NCBI RefSeq assembly: GCF_023243045.1
Contig: NZ_JALKFX010000046.1
Coordinates: 15,477 to 51,888 of the forward strand
Source: Frankia sp. AgB32
GTDB taxonomy: Bacteria > Actinomycetota > Actinomycetes > Frankiales > Frankiaceae
DNA length: 36,412 nucleotides
Direction: 5' to 3'
Positions 2,751 through 23,620 of this stretch are shown in pieces. The first letter of the stretch is position 1. Each line of letters opens with the position of its first letter. The notes beneath the pieces were generated by a model. That model was not told the DNA's origin, made no database searches, and was given only the letters and a program-made list of their open reading frames with translations. Made by a program: the position numbers and the translations under genes.

Positions 2751-4475
2751 TCAGTCGGTGCCGTGGCGCAGGAGGCGGCCGGGCGTCACGTTCGTGCACT
2801 CGCCGTCGACGAAGGTGGTCTGACCGTTGACGATGATGCGGTCGTAGCCCTTCGCCTTCTGGATGAGGCGCCACTCGCCGGCCGGGTAGTCCCAGACGCG
2901 CTCGGCGGGCAGGCTGTCGACGGTGTCCGGGTCGTAGACAATCACGTCGGCCGGCGCGCCCTCGCCGAGGAATCCTCGGCCCTTCAGCCCGGCGGCGGCC
3001 GCTGGATAGGCGGACAGCCGCCAGTGCGCCTGTTCCAAGGTCATGATCTCGTGGTCGCGGACCCACAGGCCCAGCAGCTCGCTGGGGTAGCGGGCGGTGG
3101 TGACGAACTTCGTGTGCGCGCCGCCGTCGCTGACGCCGGGCAGTGCGACCGGGCAGTTCGCGATCTCGCGCATCGACGCGGGCGGTGTCTCCAGCAGCGG
3201 GGTGGCGAACCCGACCCGCAGCTCGCCGGCCACGGCGACGTCGAGCATCGCGTCGATCGCGTGCTTGCCCTCCCGGGCGGCGATCTCGCCGATCGTGTAG
3301 CCCTCGTAGGTGTCCTTGAGCTCGCGGGCCCGGGCGACGTCGCTGGAGATCCAGTGGACCTTGATCTGGTCGAGCGGGTAGCCGGAGGCGAACAGCCCAC
3401 CGCGCTGCTCGTGAACCTCCTTCATGGCGGCGCGTCGAGCCGGGTCCGCGAGCTTGACCCGCTTGTCGGGGACCGTGCCGAGCAGGGCTTCCTTCCAGCA
3501 CGGGACGGAGTCCGCGAGGTTGTACTCCTCGAAGGTGAACTCGGAGGCGAAGTTGGTCGTAAGGGCCTGGGCGAAGACCCGGACGCCTTCGTCCTCGTTC
3601 AGCTCGGCCAGGCGCTTCAACGCGTCCCGGTGTGACATCTGCTGGCCGCCGTGCTGGTTGAGCGCGCCGTCGGCGAGAAGCGCGTTCCAGATGATGGGCC
3701 GGCCGCTCTCGCGGGCCATGAAGGCTGCCGTCTCCAGCGGTGCGGTCACCTGGGACACGCCCCGGCCCAGCGAGCCCAGCGCCCGACAGAACGCGCGCAG
3801 ATCCCGCTCGCTCATCAGGTCGGTCACCATCGGGGTTCCGTCGTAGTCGAGCTGGACGTTGCCGACCTCGCCGAGGATCTGGGCGGACAGGCCGCAGGCC
3901 CCGCTCCGCATCGCCTCGACGAGCAGCCGGCACATGCGCGCCAGCTCGTCCTCGGTCACCGCCCGGCCCTTGGCCTCGTCGAGGCCGACGACATAGCCGT
4001 ACAGCGGCGAGAGCGGGACGAACGACATGACGTTGACGCCCTTGGGCGCCCGGTCGACGCTGTCGAGGAACTGCGGGAACGTCTCCCAGTCCCACGGCAT
4101 GCCGGCCTTCATCGTCTCCATCGGCACGGCCTCGTTGCGCGACAGGCTGAGCATGGTGCGCTCGCGGTCGGACGGCTTGCAGGGCGCGAACCCGAAGCCA
4201 CAGTTGCCGATCACCACGCTGGTGACGCCGTGCCAGCCCGACATCGTGCACCACGGATCCCAGAACAGCTGGCTGTCGTAGTGCGTGTGCAGGTCGACGA
4301 CACCCGGTGCGACCACCTTCCCGGAGGCGTCGACCACCTCGGCGCCGTCGGCGGCGTTGATCCGACCGACCCCCGCCACCCGACCGCCGGCGATGGCGAC
4401 GTCGGCCTTGTAGCGGGGGGTCTGCAAGCCATCGATGACCGTTCCACCTTTGATCACAAGGTCGTAGAGCGGCAT
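2751..4475 (-). CDS. N-acyl-D-amino-acid deacylase-like amidohydrolase
   Basis: 574-residue amidohydrolase of the D-aminoacylase/dihydroorotase-like branch, full length for the family. The N-terminal beta-sandwich segment (MPLYDLVIKGGTVIDG) is followed by the metal-binding DLHTHYD motif (H63, H65). Near the C-terminus a VSDGGAH motif supplies the catalytic Asp. Family members cleave N-acyl amino acids or cyclic amides with one or two zinc ions, but many actinobacterial paralogues are uncharacterised. The start is ATG 4475, with GAGAGG about 14 nt upstream. A longer open frame to 4592 would swallow the promoter. It is the first gene of a three-gene sub-operon (deacylase, amidohydrolase-2, binding lipoprotein). 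A good promoter (TTGACC, 17 bp, CACTAT) and an imperfect palindrome lie just upstream. Confidence 0.85.
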   Translation of the reverse strand: MPLYDLVIKGGTVIDGLQTPRYKADVAIAGGRVAGVGRINAADGAEVVDASGKVVAPGVVDLHTHYDSQLFWDPWCTMSGWHGVTSVVIGNCGFGFAPCKPSDRERTMLSLSRNEAVPMETMKAGMPWDWETFPQFLDSVDRAPKGVNVMSFVPLSPLYGYVVGLDEAKGRAVTEDELARMCRLLVEAMRSGACGLSAQILGEVGNVQLDYDGTPMVTDLMSERDLRAFCRALGSLGRGVSQVTAPLETAAFMARESGRPIIWNALLADGALNQHGGQQMSHRDALKRLAELNEDEGVRVFAQALTTNFASEFTFEEYNLADSVPCWKEALLGTVPDKRVKLADPARRAAMKEVHEQRGGLFASGYPLDQIKVHWISSDVARARELKDTYEGYTIGEIAAREGKHAIDAMLDVAVAGELRVGFATPLLETPPASMREIANCPVALPGVSDGGAHTKFVTTARYPSELLGLWVRDHEIMTLEQAHWRLSAYPAAAAGLKGRGFLGEGAPADVIVYDPDTVDSLPAERVWDYPAGEWRLIQKAKGYDRIIVNGQTTFVDGECTNVTPGRLLRHGTD

Positions 4476-4499
4476 GGCATCATCACGCACCTCTCGAAG

Positions 4500-4523
4500 C
4501 TCGACATCGACCTCGATATTGAG
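4500..4523. promoter_or_regulatory. 24-bp imperfect palindrome, putative operator (copy A)
   Basis: The two 12-nt halves match at 9 of 12 positions when folded. The right half read on the minus strand is CTCAATATCGAG and the left half is CTCGACATCGAC. It falls immediately downstream of the -10 box at 4528-4533, over the expected transcription start of the deacylase operon, a classic repressor position. A related 24-bp palindrome occurs at 21832-21855 upstream of the second SnoaL-like gene. That makes a shared repressor likely. The TetR protein encoded at 17493 is a candidate, by inference only. Confidence 0.5.
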
Positions 4524-4527
4524 CCTG

Positions 4528-4556
4528 ATAGTGACGTGGCACACAGCCGCGGTCAA
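4528..4556 (-). promoter_or_regulatory. Putative sigma70-type promoter of the deacylase operon
   Basis: On the minus strand TTGACC (4556-4551, 5 of 6 to consensus) is separated by exactly 17 bp from CACTAT (4533-4528, 3 of 6). Transcription would begin near 4521, giving a leader of about 45 nt before ATG 4475. Confidence 0.45.
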
Positions 4557-4648
4557 GTGCGACCTCGTTTTCCTCCCGATCGCCGCGGACACCGGACTGA
4601 CCGTTCCGACTGGCCTGTTGCTCTCGAAACAGCCTGTCGCGAGGCCGC

Positions 4649-4719
4649 CGGACCAGCACCGGACAGTCGATCATCGTCGACGCCGGCGGCGTGATGCTCG
4701 GAGGAGCGAAGCACCACGC
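4649..4719 (+). pseudogene. Relic of an SDR gene 3' end
   Basis: On the plus strand the frame reads RTSTGQS followed by IIVDAGGVMLG, nearly the C-terminus of the intact SDR encoded at 19188-19973 (RTITGQS, VVVDAGGVMLG). The homology continues past the SDR stop: CGAAGCACCACGC (4707-4719) also follows the intact gene at about 19172-19184. The stop codon itself is altered (GGAGGAG in place of GGCTGAC). No upstream SDR body is present, so this is a stranded fragment in the gap between the acyl-CoA ligase and the deacylase. Confidence 0.65.
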
Positions 4720-4739
4720 CAGCGCGGATCACGGCCCGT

Positions 4740-6416
4740 TCAGCCCGCCGATGCGGCGACCTTGGCGGCCCATCGGTAGTCGGCCTTTCCCGCCCCGGTC
4801 CGCTGGATCGCGTCGACGAACACCCAGGCCTTCGGAAGTTTGTAGCGGGCGACGTGCCGTGCGGCCTCCGCGGCGAGATCGTCCTCTGCCGCGGTCGCGC
4901 CGTCGCGCAGGTGAACGATCGCGACGACCTCCTGACCCCAGCGCTGCGATGGCCGGGAGGCGACCACCACGTCGGAGACGTCGGGATGGGCGATGATCGC
5001 TGCCTCGACCTCCTCGGCGAAGATCTTCTCCCCACCCGAGTTGATGGTCATCGAGTCGCGGCCGAGCAGTTTGATCGTGCCGTCGGCCAGCCACTGGGCC
5101 CGGTCGCCGGGGACCACCATCCGCTCGCCGGCGACGACGGGGAAAGCCTGGGCCGTCTTCGCCGGATCACCGAGGTACCCCAGCGGAATGTCTTCCCGCT
5201 TCGCCAGCCAGCCGACGTCGTCCGCTCCGGGACCGAGCACGCTGTCGAAGTCCGCGGACACGACCACGGACCCCGCGACAGGAGAGAAGGCGCCGGTCGA
5301 ACCCGGGCCTGTCGCCGTGATGGTCCGCACGGCCTGACCACCACCCTCCGACGAACCGACGCTCTCGACGAGAGTCACCGCCGGCATGCGGGCAAGGAGC
5401 CGTGTTTCCACCGCAGGGGTCAGCGCCATTCCGCCGGACAGGACCGTGCGCAGGGATGAGAGGTCGTAGTCGCCGCGTTCCATCTCCTCGATGATCGGTC
5501 GAGCGAACGCGTCGCCGATCATCTGGAGGTACGTCACCCGCTCCCGACCGACCACGGAACAGACATCGGCCGGGTCGAGGCGTTCGACATTGTCCTGTAT
5601 CACCACCGTCCCGCCCTGGTTCAGGCCCAGCAGGGCCGTCCAGTGGCCGGCGCCGTGCATGTAGGGCGACGCCGCGAGCACCACGTGGGGATTCGGATTC
5701 GTCGCCACGAACCCGGCGAGCTCGTCCAGTGTCTGCCAGGGCTGCCGGGTGATCGGGTTTCGCCCGCCCAGGGCCGTGCGATACACGTCGGCCTGGCGCC
5801 ACAGCACCCCCTTGGGCGCGCCGGTGGTGCCGCCGGTGTAGACGATGTACAGGTCGTCGGGAGACCAGTCCGGCGCCCACTCGGGAATCGAGGTGGGGGC
5901 TTCGGCGAGGGCCTCCTCATACCATTCGGCGCCGGGAAGAAGCTCGTTGCCGGAGCCGTCCTCAAGCTGCAGCAGGACCCGCAGCTCGGGTAGGTCGGCC
6001 AGTACCTCGGCCAGCGTCGGAGCGAACGCCGAGTGATACAGAATCGCTTTCGCGGCGCTGTTCCGCAGGACGTAGCGCAGTTCCTCGGCGACGTACCGGT
6101 AGTTCACGTTCACCGGGACGACCCGGGCCTTGAACGCCCCGATCATCGCTTCGAGGTACTCGTTGCCGTTGAACGCGTAGACGGCGAGATGATCCTGATG
6201 GGACTCGTATGGTCCCAGGCCGGCGCGTCCCTGTGGCCGAGCGCCAAGGCCGCGGTCGTGCAGGACATGCGCGAGCTGCCGGGTGCGGGTGGTCAGCTGT
6301 GCGTGGGTGAACCTGCGGTCGCGGAACACTATCGCGGCTCGGTCGGGGACCTGCTCGGCAACGGCTTCGCTCACCGCCGCGAGACTGTGCTGCGAGGTCG
6401 TCCTGTCGGTGGTCAT
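4740..6416 (-). CDS. Acyl-CoA synthetase (AMP-dependent synthetase/ligase)
   Basis: 558-residue ANL-superfamily adenylating enzyme that would activate a carboxylic acid to its CoA thioester through an acyl-adenylate. The ATP-binding loop YTGGTTGAPKG is intact (about residue 190). The linker region carries GDRAQWLADGTIKLLGRDSMTINSGGEKIFAEEVE, here cited only as a marker of the A8 region, and the C-terminus keeps the catalytic lysine in GAGKADYR. Sequence style resembles actinobacterial FadD proteins acting on fatty, steroid-side-chain or xenobiotic acids. The start ATG 6416 shares one base with the stop of the Rieske gene (TGATG), so translation is coupled. It is the last gene of the upper cluster before a 264-bp gap. 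The substrate cannot be told from sequence. Confidence 0.88.
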   Translation of the reverse strand: MTTDRTTSQHSLAAVSEAVAEQVPDRAAIVFRDRRFTHAQLTTRTRQLAHVLHDRGLGARPQGRAGLGPYESHQDHLAVYAFNGNEYLEAMIGAFKARVVPVNVNYRYVAEELRYVLRNSAAKAILYHSAFAPTLAEVLADLPELRVLLQLEDGSGNELLPGAEWYEEALAEAPTSIPEWAPDWSPDDLYIVYTGGTTGAPKGVLWRQADVYRTALGGRNPITRQPWQTLDELAGFVATNPNPHVVLAASPYMHGAGHWTALLGLNQGGTVVIQDNVERLDPADVCSVVGRERVTYLQMIGDAFARPIIEEMERGDYDLSSLRTVLSGGMALTPAVETRLLARMPAVTLVESVGSSEGGGQAVRTITATGPGSTGAFSPVAGSVVVSADFDSVLGPGADDVGWLAKREDIPLGYLGDPAKTAQAFPVVAGERMVVPGDRAQWLADGTIKLLGRDSMTINSGGEKIFAEEVEAAIIAHPDVSDVVVASRPSQRWGQEVVAIVHLRDGATAAEDDLAAEAARHVARYKLPKAWVFVDAIQRTGAGKADYRWAAKVAASAG

Positions 6417-17492: not shown

Positions 17493-18155
17493 ATGCCATG
17501 GGACCGCGAAAGTCAACCGGCGTTGGGGCGTAGAGGCTGGGGCGGCTCGCCGCCCAGGGACGACGGCGAGGCGCGTCAGCGGATCCTTGACGCGGCCGTC
17601 CAGTGCATCGAGCGGCAGGGGCCGGCGCGGACCACCCTGTCCGGCGTCGCGCTCGAACTCGGCATCACCCGGCGGACCATATACCGCTACTTCACCAGCA
17701 CCGAGGACCTCTTCGGCGGGGTGGCCGAACTGGCGTTGGATGACTGGATCGCGCGGACGCGGGCTGTCGCTGGAGGGGCGGAGAACCCGACCGACCTGGT
17801 GGTCGAGGCGGTTGCCTTCATCATCGAGCAGCTACCGAAGGAGTTGTTCCTGACGCTGCTGCTCGCCAGCGGACGGGCGGAGCTCTTCAGCCGCCAGATG
17901 TTGACGTCGACCAGCATCGCGCGATGCCGGATGATCCTTGTGGACACCCGCGTCGACTGGGCCGCTCTCGGCTACGAAGACCGAGAGTTCGACGAACTCG
18001 TCGAGCTCCTGCTACGGATCATCCAGTCCATGGTGATCGCCCCGCCGGAGCAGCCCCGCTCCGGCGACGAACTCCGCGGAATCCTCCGACGGTGGATCGG
18101 GCCGGCGCTGTCCACCGTCGGAGGATGCGGCTCACGGCGATCCGAGTCGAGCTGA
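17493..18155 (+). CDS. TetR/AcrR family transcriptional regulator
   Basis: 220-residue one-component repressor. The N-terminal helix-turn-helix is clear (ILDAAVQCIERQG, then LSGVALELGITRRTIYRYFTSTEDLF, residues about 32-73). The C-terminal ligand domain is variable and unassigned. It lies divergent from the P450 gene with a 257-bp AT-rich gap, so it most likely represses the catabolic cluster and itself and is released by the substrate or an acyl-CoA intermediate. ATG 17493 is preceded only by a weak ATAGGG, so the transcript may be nearly leaderless. A hairpin and T5 run lie just past its stop. Confidence 0.9.
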   Translation: MPWDRESQPALGRRGWGGSPPRDDGEARQRILDAAVQCIERQGPARTTLSGVALELGITRRTIYRYFTSTEDLFGGVAELALDDWIARTRAVAGGAENPTDLVVEAVAFIIEQLPKELFLTLLLASGRAELFSRQMLTSTSIARCRMILVDTRVDWAALGYEDREFDELVELLLRIIQSMVIAPPEQPRSGDELRGILRRWIGPALSTVGGCGSRRSESS

Positions 18156-19187: not shown

Positions 19188-19973
19188 TCAGCCGAGCATC
19201 ACTCCGCCGGCGTCGACGACGACCGACTGGCCGGTGATGGTGCGGCTCTCGTCGCTGACGAGGAACAGCGCGGCGTTGGCGACGTCGGTCGTCGAGGAGA
19301 TGTCGCGCAGCGCGACTCCGGACAGCACCTTCGCCCGCTGCTCGTCGTACTCGACGCCCTGCTCACCGGCCGTCCGCCGGACCCAGTTCTGCCACAGCTC
19401 GGTGTCGATGCTGCCGGGCACCAGGCAGTTGCAGCGAATCCCGTACGAGCCCACCTCGTTGGCGACGCCCTTGGTGAAGGCGCGTAGTGCCGACTTCGCG
19501 GTCACATAGTGGGTCTTGCGGGGCATGCCGGCGAAGCTCGCCGTCGAGGAGAAGTTGAGGATGACGCCCGAGCGGCGTTCCATCATCGACTGCCTGAGAA
19601 CCTCACGGGTACAGAGCATCGCCGCCGTGACGTCGATACCGATCGTGTGGTTCCAGTTCTCGAGGGTCTGTTCCCAGATCCAGGTGTCCTTGCCGGGGGC
19701 GGCGGCGTTGTTGCACATGATGTCGACCTGGCCGAACTCGGCCACGGCACGGGCGACCATCGCGACCACGTCGTCCTCGTTGGTCACGTCCGCACGCATC
19801 GCGATCGCGTCCGGCCCACACGCGGCCGCGGCCTCCTTGACCAGCTCCTCCCGCCGGGCCGTGAGGAGCACCTTCGCGCCCTCGTCGACGAAGAGCTTCG
19901 CCATCACGGGCCCGAGGCCGGTGCTGGCACCCGTGATGATCGCGACTTTCCCAGCAAGGCGTCCGGTGCTCAT
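19188..19973 (-). CDS. Short-chain dehydrogenase/reductase (SDR), classical type
   Basis: 261-residue NAD(P)-dependent oxidoreductase. The nucleotide motif TGASTGLG (14-21), the CNNA motif (87-90), the catalytic Ser142/143 and Y156-x3-K160 (HYVTAK) are all intact. The C-terminus ends TGQSVVVDAGGVMLG. ATG 19973 overlaps the SnoaL stop by 4 nt (ATGA). It probably oxidises a hydroxyl or reduces a ketone on an intermediate of the neighbouring catabolic pathway. It is the parent of at least two relics in this window, one at 22456-22584 (both ends, middle deleted) and one at 4649-4719 (3' end only). Confidence 0.92.
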   Translation of the reverse strand: MSTGRLAGKVAIITGASTGLGPVMAKLFVDEGAKVLLTARREELVKEAAAACGPDAIAMRADVTNEDDVVAMVARAVAEFGQVDIMCNNAAAPGKDTWIWEQTLENWNHTIGIDVTAAMLCTREVLRQSMMERRSGVILNFSSTASFAGMPRKTHYVTAKSALRAFTKGVANEVGSYGIRCNCLVPGSIDTELWQNWVRRTAGEQGVEYDEQRAKVLSGVALRDISSTTDVANAALFLVSDESRTITGQSVVVDAGGVMLG

Positions 19974-20482
19974 CGAGCCACCGCCCCGAAGAACTGCGGC
20001 ACGACGCCGGCAAGCAACTCCCGACCGGCACCGGTGCCATCAAGCAGGCGGTTCGTCCGACGCCGCACTCCCCAGCCGTCGTCGCCGCGCGTCAGGTCCC
20101 AGTGCGCCACGCTCACCCGCCACAGGTAGAAACGACCGTTCGTGTCGTCCCGGCGCATGATCAGCGAATAGGTGACCGCAGTGGCCGTGTCACCATCGAC
20201 ATCGATCAGGGGCGGGCTGGCCACATGGGCGACTCCGGCGTGGATCAGACCCTGGTGCCCCTCGGTCCGCAGCATGGCCTCCACGGCGGCGCGGCCGTCG
20301 TACGGTGCGCCGTTCGCGTCCCAGTCGTAGACGCCATCCTCCTGCCACGCGGACGCGGCCAGATCGACCAACCCTGCGTCGGCCGCGGGACCATACGCCA
20401 GGATCAACCGCCTGATCGCCCGCTCATCCTCAACGGCGCGTAACCGACCCTCGAGTGCGGCTAGATCTTCCGCGACCCCCAT
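19970..20482 (-). CDS. SnoaL-like / nuclear transport factor 2-fold protein (copy 1)
   Basis: 170-residue alpha+beta-barrel protein of the SnoaL/NTF2-like superfamily. Actinobacterial members serve as isomerases, dehydratases or ring hydratases in steroid and polyketide pathways, or have unknown function. The conserved style is RAVEDERAIRRLILAYGPAADAG near the N-terminus and a C-terminal WGVRRRTNRLLDGTGAG. ATG 20482 is preceded by a strong GGGGAGG. The in-frame extension to 20575 has no site. It is the first gene of the SnoaL / SDR / crotonase unit. A closely similar paralogue of exactly equal length lies at 21947 in opposite orientation. Confidence 0.85.
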   Translation of the reverse strand: MGVAEDLAALEGRLRAVEDERAIRRLILAYGPAADAGLVDLAASAWQEDGVYDWDANGAPYDGRAAVEAMLRTEGHQGLIHAGVAHVASPPLIDVDGDTATAVTYSLIMRRDDTNGRFYLWRVSVAHWDLTRGDDGWGVRRRTNRLLDGTGAGRELLAGVVPQFFGAVAR

Positions 20483-20680: not shown

Positions 20681-20712
20681 GGATCGGACACCGTCCCACC
20701 GATGTCCGATCC
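20681..20712. promoter_or_regulatory. 32-bp inverted repeat, copy 1
   Basis: Perfect 10-bp arms GGATCGGACA and TGTCCGATCC flank 12 nt. The 9-bp core arms (GGATCGGAC, GTCCGATCC) with a 14-nt gap recur identically at 21744-21775. This copy lies 199 bp upstream of SnoaL copy 1 and 240 bp downstream of the EthD-like gene. An operator for a dimeric regulator is the simplest reading, and a termination hairpin for the EthD transcript is the alternative. Confidence 0.55.
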
Positions 20713-20951: not shown

Positions 20952-21683
20952 TCAGCCGCTCCAGGCAGCCCACTGGATCATGGATCGTAGAGGCCCGGCG
21001 AACAACGGCCGTACGTCTCCCGAGGCCCATCGCCGCTCGATGGTGGGAGTCAGTCGTTTCGTGGTCGCCAAGGGGTCGTCGTCGAGGTAGACGACGGTGA
21101 TGTACTGCGGTCCGCCCTGGCAGGCGGGGTCCAGCCGCCAGAAGTCGGTGGAGCCGTACTGCCAGGCGCCGGCGACGCCGGGCGTCTGGAGCAGCGCCGG
21201 GTAGTGCTGGGCGTGCAGCCACTGAAGCCAGCCGGAGACGTCGTCCGTCACCGGCTCCTCGATGATCATGAGGATGCCGCGGTGCGGTCGGAAGGGCACG
21301 ACCTCCGGGGAGATCAGTGCGCGTGGCGCGGCGTACCAGCGTTGCAGCGCCAGCAGCCGCAGCTGCAGCGAGGGGCGACGTTCGGGGAAACGTCCGGCCT
21401 CGGCGAGGCGCAGGCCGAGTTCCAGGAAGTCGTCGTGGGTCTGTTGGACGGGGTCGCCGACGAGGTAGTTCACGATGTTGCCGACGTCGGCCAGGGGGCC
21501 ACTGCCGGCGATGCGGGCCTGTCGGTACTCGTCCTCGGCGATCCACCGTGTCGCGTGGACGAGCCCTGGTAGCTGATACTGCTCGGGCATGTGGTCGAGC
21601 AGGTGCCAGCGCAGGTAGCTGCCGTCGTCTCCGGGCGGCGCTGGCTCCGTCGCGCTGAAGAACGCTGCCTTCACTCGGATCAT
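20952..21683 (-). CDS. EthD-like tandem dimeric alpha/beta-barrel protein
   Basis: 243 residues made of two similar ferredoxin-like halves. The first has DGSYLRWHLLDHMPEQYQLPGLVHATRW and the second, after about residue 130, has GWLQWLHAQHYPALLQTPGVAGAWQYG. The pattern H...P...PGV is typical of EthD and related dimeric alpha/beta-barrel proteins, which bind small hydrophobic ligands or act as monooxygenase-like helpers in ether and aromatic degradation. ATG 21683 has GGAGG 10 nt upstream. It lies alone between two inverted SnoaL-containing units and is divergent from SnoaL copy 2. The family assignment rests on motif pattern only. Confidence 0.62.
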   Translation of the reverse strand: MIRVKAAFFSATEPAPPGDDGSYLRWHLLDHMPEQYQLPGLVHATRWIAEDEYRQARIAGSGPLADVGNIVNYLVGDPVQQTHDDFLELGLRLAEAGRFPERRPSLQLRLLALQRWYAAPRALISPEVVPFRPHRGILMIIEEPVTDDVSGWLQWLHAQHYPALLQTPGVAGAWQYGSTDFWRLDPACQGGPQYITVVYLDDDPLATTKRLTPTIERRWASGDVRPLFAGPLRSMIQWAAWSG

Positions 21684-21742: not shown

Positions 21743-21776
21743 GGGATCGGACGTTCGCGCAAAACTGTCCGATCCC
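21743..21776. promoter_or_regulatory. 34-bp inverted repeat, copy 2
   Basis: Perfect 10-bp arms GGGATCGGAC and GTCCGATCCC flank 14 nt, in the divergent gap between the EthD-like gene and SnoaL copy 2. The 9-bp core arms and the 14-nt gap are identical to those at 20681-20712, while the gap sequence differs. Conserved arms with a free spacer are typical of a protein-binding operator. It is 171 bp upstream of SnoaL copy 2. Confidence 0.6.
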
Positions 21777-21831: not shown

Positions 21832-21855
21832 CTCGATACCGATGTCGATATTGAC
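21832..21855. promoter_or_regulatory. 24-bp imperfect palindrome, putative operator (copy B)
   Basis: The halves CTCGATACCGAT and GTCGATATTGAC match at 8 of 12 positions when folded. The element is closely related to the one at 4500-4523. It follows a TATATC box (21827-21832), so it would overlap the transcription start of SnoaL copy 2, the same relative place as copy A at the deacylase promoter. Confidence 0.45.
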
Positions 21856-21946
21856 TTTTGGCTTCCGGCTGTGGAAGGGTTGCCTTCTGCCGTGTGGGGC
21901 GTAGGTCCGGGCGGTGGCTTGTGCCGCTGCGGATGGGGAGGTACAC

Positions 21947-22459
21947 GTGGGTGCTGTTGAAGATCTGGCCTCGCTGGCGGCGCGGCTGAGACGCGTTGAG
22001 GACGAGCTGGCGATCAGGCGGCTGATCCTGTCGTACGGTCCCGCGGCCGACGCGGGGCTCGTGGACCTGGCCGCGTCGGTGTGGCGCGAGGACGGTAGCT
22101 ACGACTGGGACGCGGCCGGTGCGCCGTACGAGGGGCGCGCCGCCGTGGCGGCCATGCTGAGGGCCGACACCCACCAGGGCCTGATCCAGGCCGGCGTCGC
22201 CCACGTGGCGGGGCCGCCGCTGATCGACCTTGACGGTGACGCGGCGACCGCGATCACCTATTCACTGATCATGCGCCGGGATGCCGCGGACGGCCGGTAC
22301 TACCTGTGGCGGGTGAGCGCCGCCCACTGGGAGCTGACCCGCGACGGTGATGTCTGGGCGGTACGACGCCGGACCAACAGGCTTCTCGACGACACCGGCG
22401 CCGGCCGGAACCTGTTGAACTCGGTCGTGCGCGAGATGTCCGGGGCGGCCGCCCGATGA
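21947..22459 (+). CDS. SnoaL-like / NTF2-fold protein (copy 2)
   Basis: 170 residues, the same length as and highly similar throughout to copy 1 at 19970-20482 (shared IRRLILSYGPAADAGLVDLA, TYSLIMRRD, RRRTNRLLD). GTG 21947 is chosen because it aligns with the ATG of copy 1 and is preceded by the same GGGGAGG. An in-frame start at 21914 would run through that site. Its stop overlaps the start of the 42-codon SDR remnant by 4 nt (ATGA), exactly the junction seen in copy 1. The unit is thus an inverted duplicate of the SnoaL / SDR pair in which only the SnoaL half has stayed whole. A diverged substrate range relative to copy 1 is possible. Confidence 0.85.
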   Translation: MGAVEDLASLAARLRRVEDELAIRRLILSYGPAADAGLVDLAASVWREDGSYDWDAAGAPYEGRAAVAAMLRADTHQGLIQAGVAHVAGPPLIDLDGDAATAITYSLIMRRDAADGRYYLWRVSAAHWELTRDGDVWAVRRRTNRLLDDTGAGRNLLNSVVREMSGAAAR

Positions 22460-22584
22460 CCACGGGACGCCTGGCCGGGAAGGTCGCGATCATCACCGCA
22501 GCGAGTACGGGTCCGGGGCCGATGATGGCGACGCTGCTTGTTCAGTCGATCGTCGTCGACGCTGGCGGGGTGATGCTCGGATGA
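22456..22584 (+). pseudogene. SDR gene reduced to 42 codons by in-frame internal deletion
   Basis: The open frame keeps the first about 28 codons of the neighbouring SDR (TGRLAGKVAIIT) and its last about 14 codons (QSIVVDAGGVMLG then stop), joined in frame. About 220 codons containing the active site are gone. The nucleotide-binding motif has also decayed (TAASTGPG for TGASTGLG). Both ends remain translationally coupled: ATG overlaps the SnoaL stop by 4 nt and the TGA overlaps the LLM gene ATG by 4 nt. It cannot be an oxidoreductase. It may persist only as a coupling cistron that hands ribosomes from SnoaL to the LLM gene, or it may be a plain relic. Confidence 0.8.
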
Positions 22585-23477
22585 GTGCGACACCAGCCCT
22601 GCGGCTGTCGGTCCCCAGCCCTGTCCTGACGATGCTGCCCGGCGCACACGCCCGCTGGGAGGAGACCGCCGGCATCGAGGAGGTCGCCCGCATAGCGCAG
22701 GCCGCCGACCGGCTCGGCTACCACCACCTGACCTGCAGCGAGCACATCGGCGTCCCCGCCACCGAGGCGGTCCGCCGCGGCGCCCGCTACTTCGACCCCC
22801 TGGCGACCTTCGGCTACCTCGCCGCCCGCACCGAACGCATCATGCTGGCCACCAACGTGCTGGTCCTCGGCTACCACCACCCGCTGGAGATCGCCAAGCG
22901 CTACGGCACCCTCGACGTGATCAGCGGCGGACGGGTGATCCTCGGCCTTGGCGTCGGCACGCTCAAGGAGGAGTTCGACCTCCTCGGCGCGTCCTTCCCC
23001 GACCGCGGGGCCCGCGCCGACGACGCGCTGCGCGCGCTGCGGGCGGCACTGTCGCAGCCGATCCCCGCCTACCAGGGCGACTACTACACCTTCGGCGGGC
23101 TCGTGGTCGACCCGTGCGCCGTGCAGGAGCGGCTGCCCCTGTGGGTCGGCGGGCGGACCCTGCGGTCGCTGCGGCGGGCCGTCGCGCTGGCGGACGGCTG
23201 GTGCCCGTTCGGTGTCACCCCGGCCCAGGCGAGCGAGTGGATCCGGCGGGAGGAAATCCCCTCGGGCTTCGAGATCGCGCTCGGCCCGGAACATCTCCTC
23301 GACCCGGGCAAGGAGCCGGACGCGGTGCGCGAGGAACTCGCCGCGCTCGCCGCCGCCGGAGCCACCATCGCCTCGGCCAGGCTCGTCCACCACTCGCTGG
23401 ACCACTACCTCGAGCAGCTCGAAGCACTCGCTGCCATCAACGGCCAGACGCACACCGTCATCGCCGGGAAGGGCTGA
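22581..23477 (+). CDS. LLM-class (luciferase-like) F420/FMN-dependent oxidoreductase
   Basis: 298-residue TIM-barrel protein of the luciferase-like monooxygenase superfamily. Typical segments are AQAADRLGYHHLTCSEHIGVP, YFDPLATFGYLAARTERIML, VLGYHHPLEIAKRYGTLDVISGGR (cited as family marker) and LWVGGRT. Actinobacterial members of this look commonly use coenzyme F420. The cofactor is not decidable here. The start ATG 22581 overlaps the SDR-remnant stop by 4 nt. It is the last intact gene of the SnoaL copy 2 unit, so an oxidation or reduction on the same intermediate family is likely. Immediately past its stop begins another SDR fragment. Confidence 0.87.
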   Translation: MSATPALRLSVPSPVLTMLPGAHARWEETAGIEEVARIAQAADRLGYHHLTCSEHIGVPATEAVRRGARYFDPLATFGYLAARTERIMLATNVLVLGYHHPLEIAKRYGTLDVISGGRVILGLGVGTLKEEFDLLGASFPDRGARADDALRALRAALSQPIPAYQGDYYTFGGLVVDPCAVQERLPLWVGGRTLRSLRRAVALADGWCPFGVTPAQASEWIRREEIPSGFEIALGPEHLLDPGKEPDAVREELAALAAAGATIASARLVHHSLDHYLEQLEALAAINGQTHTVIAGKG

Positions 23478-23620
23478 GCGCCCGCGCTGGCCGCCGAGGG
23501 CGCGTCCGTCGTCATCAACGACCTGGGCACCGACGAGGTCGCGCAGGGAGCAGGCCGTTGCGCCGCCGACGGCACAGTAGAGGAGATCCGCGCCGCCGGC
23601 GGCAATCGGGCTGCCGTTCT
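23478..23620 (+). pseudogene. Fragment of an SDR N-terminal Rossmann domain
   Basis: Directly after the LLM stop, in the same frame, the sequence reads ALAAEGASVVINDLGTD and then GTVEEIRAAGGN. This is the beta2 strand and following helix of SDRs of the hydroxyacyl-CoA-dehydrogenase type. The preceding TGxxxGIG motif and everything after beta3 are absent, and no start codon is present. It differs from the SDR at 19188, so it derives from another SDR gene. Confidence 0.6.

Follow-up and report, generated by a model that had tools for sequence, protein, structure and literature searches.

A 42-codon remnant of a redundant SDR gene between overlapping SnoaL and LLM genes of Frankia sp. AgB32 as a possible ribosome relay

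Overlaps of the ATGA type are common in bacterial operons, and the translational coupling across them is usually treated as setting protein ratios. Laboratory operon genetics makes use of the non-polar in-frame deletion, in which the middle of a gene is removed, the start and stop regions are kept and the downstream genes stay expressed. For termination-reinitiation, two studies report that overlapping gene pairs were strictly coupled in all nine cases tested in Haloferax volcanii and also in Escherichia coli, with one exception (PMC6728339), that the last 15 nt of the upstream gene are sufficient for termination-reinitiation in E. coli, that a gap of about 20 nt nearly abolished coupling, and that restart across 14-15 nt was still seen in one of two pairs (PMC10666635). 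The locus described here resembles these systems in its 4-nt overlaps on both sides and its weaker downstream start (PMC6728339, PMC10666635), and the remnant that it contains is comparable to the short 3' piece of an upstream gene that was enough in E. coli (PMC10666635). It differs in that the upstream gene in those accounts was native or a built construct, whereas here it is a natural remnant without an apparent product. Its anatomy is the same as that of a laboratory non-polar in-frame deletion, but it is natural and arose independently in two Frankia lineages. Likewise, the loss of a redundant gene is in line with the gene loss in eroding Frankia genomes (PMC9379372), but in our case the frame and both overlaps were preserved. 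No literature on remnants kept for coupling was found by title in a search that covered few subscription journals.

The stretch of DNA analysed, hereafter the window, comprises 36,412 nucleotides of a Frankia sp. AgB32 contig (NZ_JALKFX010000046.1). The features relevant to this analysis are the following.

21947..22459, plus strand: gene for a SnoaL-like protein (PF13577), first cistron, with a GTG start after a strong ribosome-binding site; its stop overlaps the stub start by ATGA
22456..22584, plus strand: 42-codon SDR stub, codons 1-29 joined to codons 249-261 of an SDR gene, 657 nt missing between
22543..22584, plus strand: retained SDR tail, 13 codons and the stop, the stretch adjoining the LLM start that coupling would need
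22581..23477, plus strand: gene for an LLM-class F420-dependent oxidoreductase (PF00296, TIGR03619), third cistron; its start overlaps the stub stop by ATGA and its ribosome-binding site is weaker
19188..19973, minus strand: intact SDR paralogue, 261 aa, PF13561; a genome-wide search at E<=1e-60 gave no other intact member of this family
19970..20482, minus strand: intact SnoaL paralogue, overlapping the intact SDR gene by ATGA
20952..21683, minus strand: gene that we take to be 'EthD', with 243 aa if counted from 21683, pointing away from the SnoaL-stub-LLM operon
21744..21773, no strand assigned: palindromic operator-like site, GGATCGGAC-N14-GTCCGAT, 5' of the operon, a pattern present in 7 of 9 sequences scanned
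4634..4724, plus strand: third SDR trace, limited to the tail (codons 239-261); its stop codon has changed from TGA to GGA, and no LLM gene follows

The open reading frame at 22456-22584 translates as MTTGRLAGKVAIITAASTGPGPMMATLLVQSIVVDAGGVMLG, followed by a stop codon. Compared with the 261-aa paralogue, it keeps codons 1-29 and 249-261 (29 + 13), and the deletion of 786 - 129 = 657 nt is a multiple of three. The ATGA at 22456-22459 is common to the SnoaL stop and the stub start, and that at 22581-22584 to the stub stop and the LLM start. A classical SDR enzyme is expected to have an intact TGxxxGxG cofactor motif and a catalytic Ser-Tyr-Lys region. The stub has neither: the cofactor stretch, TGASTGLG in all ten full-length homologues, reads TAASTGPG, with A and P in place of the invariant G15 and L20, and the catalytic region went with codons 30-248. 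The stub has its source in the SDR family (PF13561/PF00106), but lacks 219 of 261 codons, including the entire middle. A search against Pfam and NCBIfam gave no match for the stub. The initial annotation had described an in-frame fusion of the ends of an SDR gene (about 28 and 14 codons), exact ATGA overlaps with both neighbours, a decayed binding motif, and a frame kept after the loss of enzyme function; all of this was borne out, with the codon counts refined by the paralogue alignment. Of the marks of a pseudogene, the stub shows an intact copy elsewhere in the genome (19188-19973) but no broken reading frame, its frame being open with both overlaps kept. Cistrons coupled by termination-reinitiation share 4 or 1 nt at the junction of stop and start codons, and the stub does so through ATGA on both sides.

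The intact second copy in the window, which the initial annotation had missed, explains why the SDR gene could be lost. At the DNA level, the SnoaL-SDR region is 76-77% identical to the minus-strand paralogue along the 603-645 nt that precede the break, and 53 nt at the end match it at 83%. At 76-77% identity, the duplication that gave the two SnoaL-SDR segments is not a fresh one. We surveyed 35 genomes of the family with cut-offs of E<=1e-80 for LLM and E<=1e-60 for SDR, and found the LLM gene in 10 and this SDR gene in 9 of them, the latter as a single match each. The SnoaL-SDR-LLM arrangement is present in eight Frankiaceae genomes, four with the SDR gene intact in place and four with a relic. 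The genomes with a full SDR gene in the operon (G017, G021, G001 and G006) contain no other copy, whereas those with a relic in the operon (AgB32 itself, G000; AgKG'84/4, G007; AgB1.9, G052; and CN7, G049) have an intact SDR gene elsewhere. In the ninth SDR genome, G016, the SDR and SnoaL genes are divergent from an EthD-LLM pair; the 'EthD' gene adjoins the SnoaL-SDR-LLM operon or the LLM gene in several relatives. Loci taken to represent the same genome, on the basis of equal sizes, coordinates or match values, were counted once (L051 and L015/L095 as G016, L029 as G052, L030 as G049 and L032 as G007). The four relic genomes amount to three independent events, since AgB32 and AgKG'84/4 share a common block and were therefore scored as one. 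The SDR gene was thus lost from the operon only in genomes with a second copy, which identifies the stub as the remnant of a redundant copy; as judged from these comparisons, redundancy is a well-supported explanation of the SDR loss. A class-wide search of 393 genomes sampled from a larger group found the LLM gene at E<=1e-100 in 38. Together with a set of 43 loci, this search revealed no further stub among the loci listed, and additional intact SDR-LLM neighbours in Mycolicibacterium arenosum (L045) and an Acidimicrobiaceae MAG (L047). Two genomes of another family (L112, L116) have intact SDR-LLM neighbours as well.

Redundancy alone would account for the loss, and the same facts are therefore compatible with a neutral deletion that was in frame by luck and is open because it is young, leaving a stub without a role. 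We consider this a serious possibility, if short of an even chance, and it has to be weighed against the reading that we prefer, in which the remnant was kept open as a ribosome relay to the LLM gene. As to age, the initial annotation had offered a very recent deletion as the alternative to a relay. This is doubtful, because the retained ends of the window stub have six amino-acid changes relative to G021, including two in the otherwise invariant cofactor stretch, whereas the four intact copies of the clade have 0 to 4 over these ends. Counting amino-acid and silent changes from G021, the stub has 6 and 11; the corresponding numbers for the intact copies are 0 and 5 (AgB1.9_par), 0 and 10 (CN7_par), 3 and 11 (G017) and 4 and 7 (WIN_par). 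By this comparison, six changes would not in themselves be striking, and it is the two at invariant cofactor positions that appear so. The neighbouring genes are both still constrained, with dN/dS values between the window and G021 of 0.36 for SnoaL and 0.20 for LLM. An open frame is in itself easily explained, because about 1.3% of the single-base changes in the stub create a stop codon, and so the frame stays open easily; this is in favour of a neutral deletion.

The initial annotation had proposed to look for the same 42-codon frame in related strains. Indeed, Frankia sp. AgKG'84/4 carries an identical stub, with none of the 129 positions differing. The same junction is found in the AgKG'84/4 assembly (L032), which makes an assembly error an unlikely source of it. 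No difference is found over 761 nt, and only one over window positions 21850-23205. The identical stub lies in a block of about 20 kb (window 4394-24905) that is common to both genomes, with 99.5% identity over 18,812 nt and then 97.8% over 1744 columns (3 mismatches, 2 gaps). Rightward from 25289, the identity is only 81-94%, and left of 4394 the AgKG'84/4 stretch that was compared is unmatched except for one 60-nt piece. PMC9379372 gives an average nucleotide identity of 89% between AgKG'84/4 and AgB32, and describes parallel genome erosion in the two strains. The block is probably a catabolic island that was recently exchanged between the two lineages. Its content includes a P450, an acyl-CoA ligase, an aldehyde dehydrogenase, enoyl-CoA hydratases, a Rieske oxygenase, SDR, SnoaL and LLM, and the third SDR trace (4634-4724) sits just inside its left end. 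In AgKG'84/4 the LLM gene is split over two contigs (L032 4628-4702 and L066 1-83). Both contig ends exit the gene at a common 8-mer, CTGGTGCC, and have similar inverted ends (GTGGTGTAGATCGG), as would be expected of an insertion sequence that had duplicated 8 bp of its target, the element itself not being seen. That AgKG'84/4 keeps the stub although its LLM gene is probably interrupted counts against a relay and in favour of a neutral deletion.

A second lineage provides a parallel case. In AgB1.9 (L029), the LLM gene (from 4001) is preceded by two stubs, one of SnoaL with 53 codons (3730-3891) and one of SDR with 38 codons (3888-4004), and all junctions overlap by ATGA. AgB1.8 and AgW1.1 belong to the genospecies of AgB1.9, and CN4, CN6 and CNM7 to that of CN7 (PMC8542509). 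G017, the nearest relative of AgB1.9 at this locus, has a full SnoaL gene, a full SDR gene and LLM, and relative to G017 the losses in AgB1.9 amount to 351 nt of SnoaL and 669 nt of SDR (codons 28-250). The fork of AgB1.9 and G017 in the LLM tree has a support of 100/100, with branches of 0.013 and 0.012. When the window stub and the AgB1.9 stub are forced to form a single clade, the likelihood falls by 7.6 log units; the p-AU, from 114 columns, is 0.005, and this rejection implies that the SDR gene was cut twice independently. A single ancestral deletion in both lineages, after which recombination restored the full gene to G017 and G021, is for this reason very unlikely. It would make sense of the near coincidence of the cut ends, and some exchange of SDR genes is indicated by the SDR tree, where G017 and CN7_par group together, in contrast to the LLM tree. 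However, the ends of the AgB1.9 stub are nearest to G017 and those of the window stub nearest to G021, and the two junctions differ by 12 nt.

The initial annotation had also named an outcome that would speak against a relay, namely relatives carrying a full SDR gene here with this strain alone deleted. This applies in part: four of the eight genomes (G017, G021, G001 and G006) have the full gene, but AgKG'84/4 shares the deletion, AgB1.9 has one of its own, and CN7 has a further relic. Two further in-frame cuts in an independent lineage, with all overlaps kept, are not readily expected of a neutral deletion. The three clean deletions (657, 669 and 351 nt) are all multiples of three, with a chance probability of no less than 1/27, or 1/9 if the case that drew our attention is left out, so that in-frame cuts by chance are a strong contender.

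The two SDR cuts coincide to within two codons at either end, for which P is about 0.0007 if the ends fall at random in the gene. It is suggestive that some copies have a 7-9-mer in phase near both ends, and a deletion hot spot, at which the SDR sequence would favour cuts near codons 28-30 and 249-251 in the same phase, and hence in frame without selection, would account for the positions while being compatible with the other readings. In WIN_par, AgB1.9_par and G021, the common word, TCGTCGA(CG), is found at nt 83 and again, in the same phase, at nt 755. We nevertheless regard a hot spot as unlikely, because neither junction is the exact product of the repeat (657 and 669 nt were lost, against 672 predicted), because the repeat is absent from G017, the closest intact relative of AgB1.9, because such long common words are frequent in background pairs for all copies but WIN_par, and because the SnoaL deletion is left unexplained. 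An origin of the coinciding ends by repeat-mediated deletion was rejected, since the in-phase 7-9-mer fits neither junction.

Between AgB1.9 and G017, the LLM gene has 3 amino-acid and 17 silent changes (dN/dS 0.06), whereas the SDR stub has 6 and 2 (dN/dS 1.1, from few changes). In a first Fisher test, from which the differing start codon (GTG versus ATG) was left out, giving 5 and 2 changes, amino-acid changes were found at 5 of 83 sites in the stub versus 3 of 630 in LLM (p = 0.0008); three of these five are Ile/Val changes at junction codons that may not be drift, and without them the p-value is 0.09. In the SnoaL stub of AgB1.9, the 30 nt that directly precede the overlap (L029 3858-3887) show 7 differences from G017, more than expected from the silent divergence of LLM. 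The lack of a sign of amino-acid constraint in the AgB1.9 stub is one of several observations that make it extremely improbable that the stub encodes a functional small protein. Its frame is open and linked by ATGA, and silent changes exceed amino-acid changes against G021 (11 to 6), much of which distance may predate the deletion, but its cofactor motif is broken, it matches no Pfam or NCBIfam family, and the window and AgB1.9 stubs differ in length and at the junction.

Two further relics show more decay. In F. nepalensis CN7 (L030), the LLM gene is preceded by the start of an EthD gene joined to the tail half of an SDR gene. This is the most decayed operon SDR among the relics; it contains internal frame shifts and keeps the ATGA at LLM. 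The CN7 LLM gene has an extra AAGGAGGT site, whose anti-SD energy is -16.0, together with a separate ATG located 18 nt downstream, which would fit a release from coupling, in a single case. The open frame across the CN7 relic (ORF 3552-4004, 150 codons, with an ATGA end at LLM) was dropped as evidence for frame keeping; it is uninformative because the LLM frame likewise runs through this stretch without a stop (ORF 3260-4885). The third SDR trace in the window, which has no LLM gene behind it, has lost both start and stop. It may illustrate how an unconstrained relic could look, and in this respect it would count against a neutral deletion.

Anti-SD energies were computed with an assumed 16S tail and are energies only; the values for LLM of L045, L047, L051 and L041 and for SnoaL of L082 are void, as the position scored was not the start codon. 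In the window, the energy is -13.2 at the SnoaL start and -9.8 at the LLM start. SnoaL starts have values of -13 to -17 in 6 of 9 scored, with weaker ones in G001 and G006 and one value void, and in Frankia operons the SDR starts range from -5.4 to -11.2 and the overlapping LLM starts from -3.1 to -9.8. LLM sites are therefore weaker than SnoaL sites, although the window LLM start, at -9.8, might work alone. A scan for promoters and terminators inside the operon, which may not cover actinobacterial promoters, found none. The stub is long enough to hand on ribosomes, given that 15 nt of an upstream gene are enough in E. coli. The idea that only in-frame deletions can reach LLM was not borne out when the wrong phases were reconstructed. 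Of the two wrong phases of the SDR cut, in the window as in AgB1.9, one would stop 7 nt before LLM and the other would fuse into it; for the SnoaL cut of AgB1.9, translation in one of the wrong phases would still terminate at the LLM overlap. A cut in another phase need not have been fatal, which weakens the frame argument, and out-of-phase cuts might also leave LLM translated, which would again suit a neutral deletion.

Taking these observations together, we put the probability at slightly above one half that the stub represents what is left of a redundant SDR gene and was kept open as a ribosome relay to LLM. The genome had two SnoaL-SDR pairs, and the SDR copy between SnoaL and LLM lost codons 30-248, so that it no longer gives rise to an enzyme. 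In the relay scenario, ribosomes finishing SnoaL would restart at the ATGA of the stub, read 42 codons, and restart at the second ATGA to translate LLM, whose own ribosome-binding site is modest. An in-frame loss would thereby remove the enzyme and leave the hand-over of ribosomes exactly as before. We infer that LLM needs the relay and that in-frame stubs would hence be what survives; this reading of the sequences is plausible and is strengthened by the parallel case in AgB1.9, with some indirect backing also from the weak LLM ribosome-binding sites and the strong extra site of CN7. If so, the relay would be a naturally occurring form of the translational coupling already known and not a new kind of system.

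More tentatively, coupling may act as a filter on gene loss, such that a redundant gene lost from the middle of an overlapping operon leaves a minimal relay cistron with both overlaps, which selection maintains for the sake of the gene that follows rather than for the peptide it encodes. Such an outcome would have arisen in at least two independent lineages, one represented by the window and AgKG'84/4 and the other by AgB1.9, with two relays in a row, and the CN7 relic would have been free to decay further given the strong site of its own LLM gene. We would sooner doubt than assert this broader proposal at present. If coupling also decides which deletions survive, overlaps would shape the shrinkage of operons, and tiny unannotated open reading frames between overlapping genes could be relay remnants. 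Such remnants can be counted across genomes and tested by simple reporters.

Lastly, some features around the operon should be mentioned. A piece of about 45 codons of another SDR-like gene lies directly 3' of LLM on the plus strand (window 23478-23610), and the stretch 3' of the LLM gene in G021 matches this piece at 83% over 41 residues, inside a longer SDR match. A second GGATCGGAC-N14-GTCCGAT palindrome is present at window 20681-20710, and such sites were also detected in the AgB1.9, CN7, G017 and G006 stretches and in neither G021 nor G001, among the 9 sequences scanned. A TetR_N gene is located at window 17493-18155, and the palindromes are possibly the operator of a TetR-type regulator.
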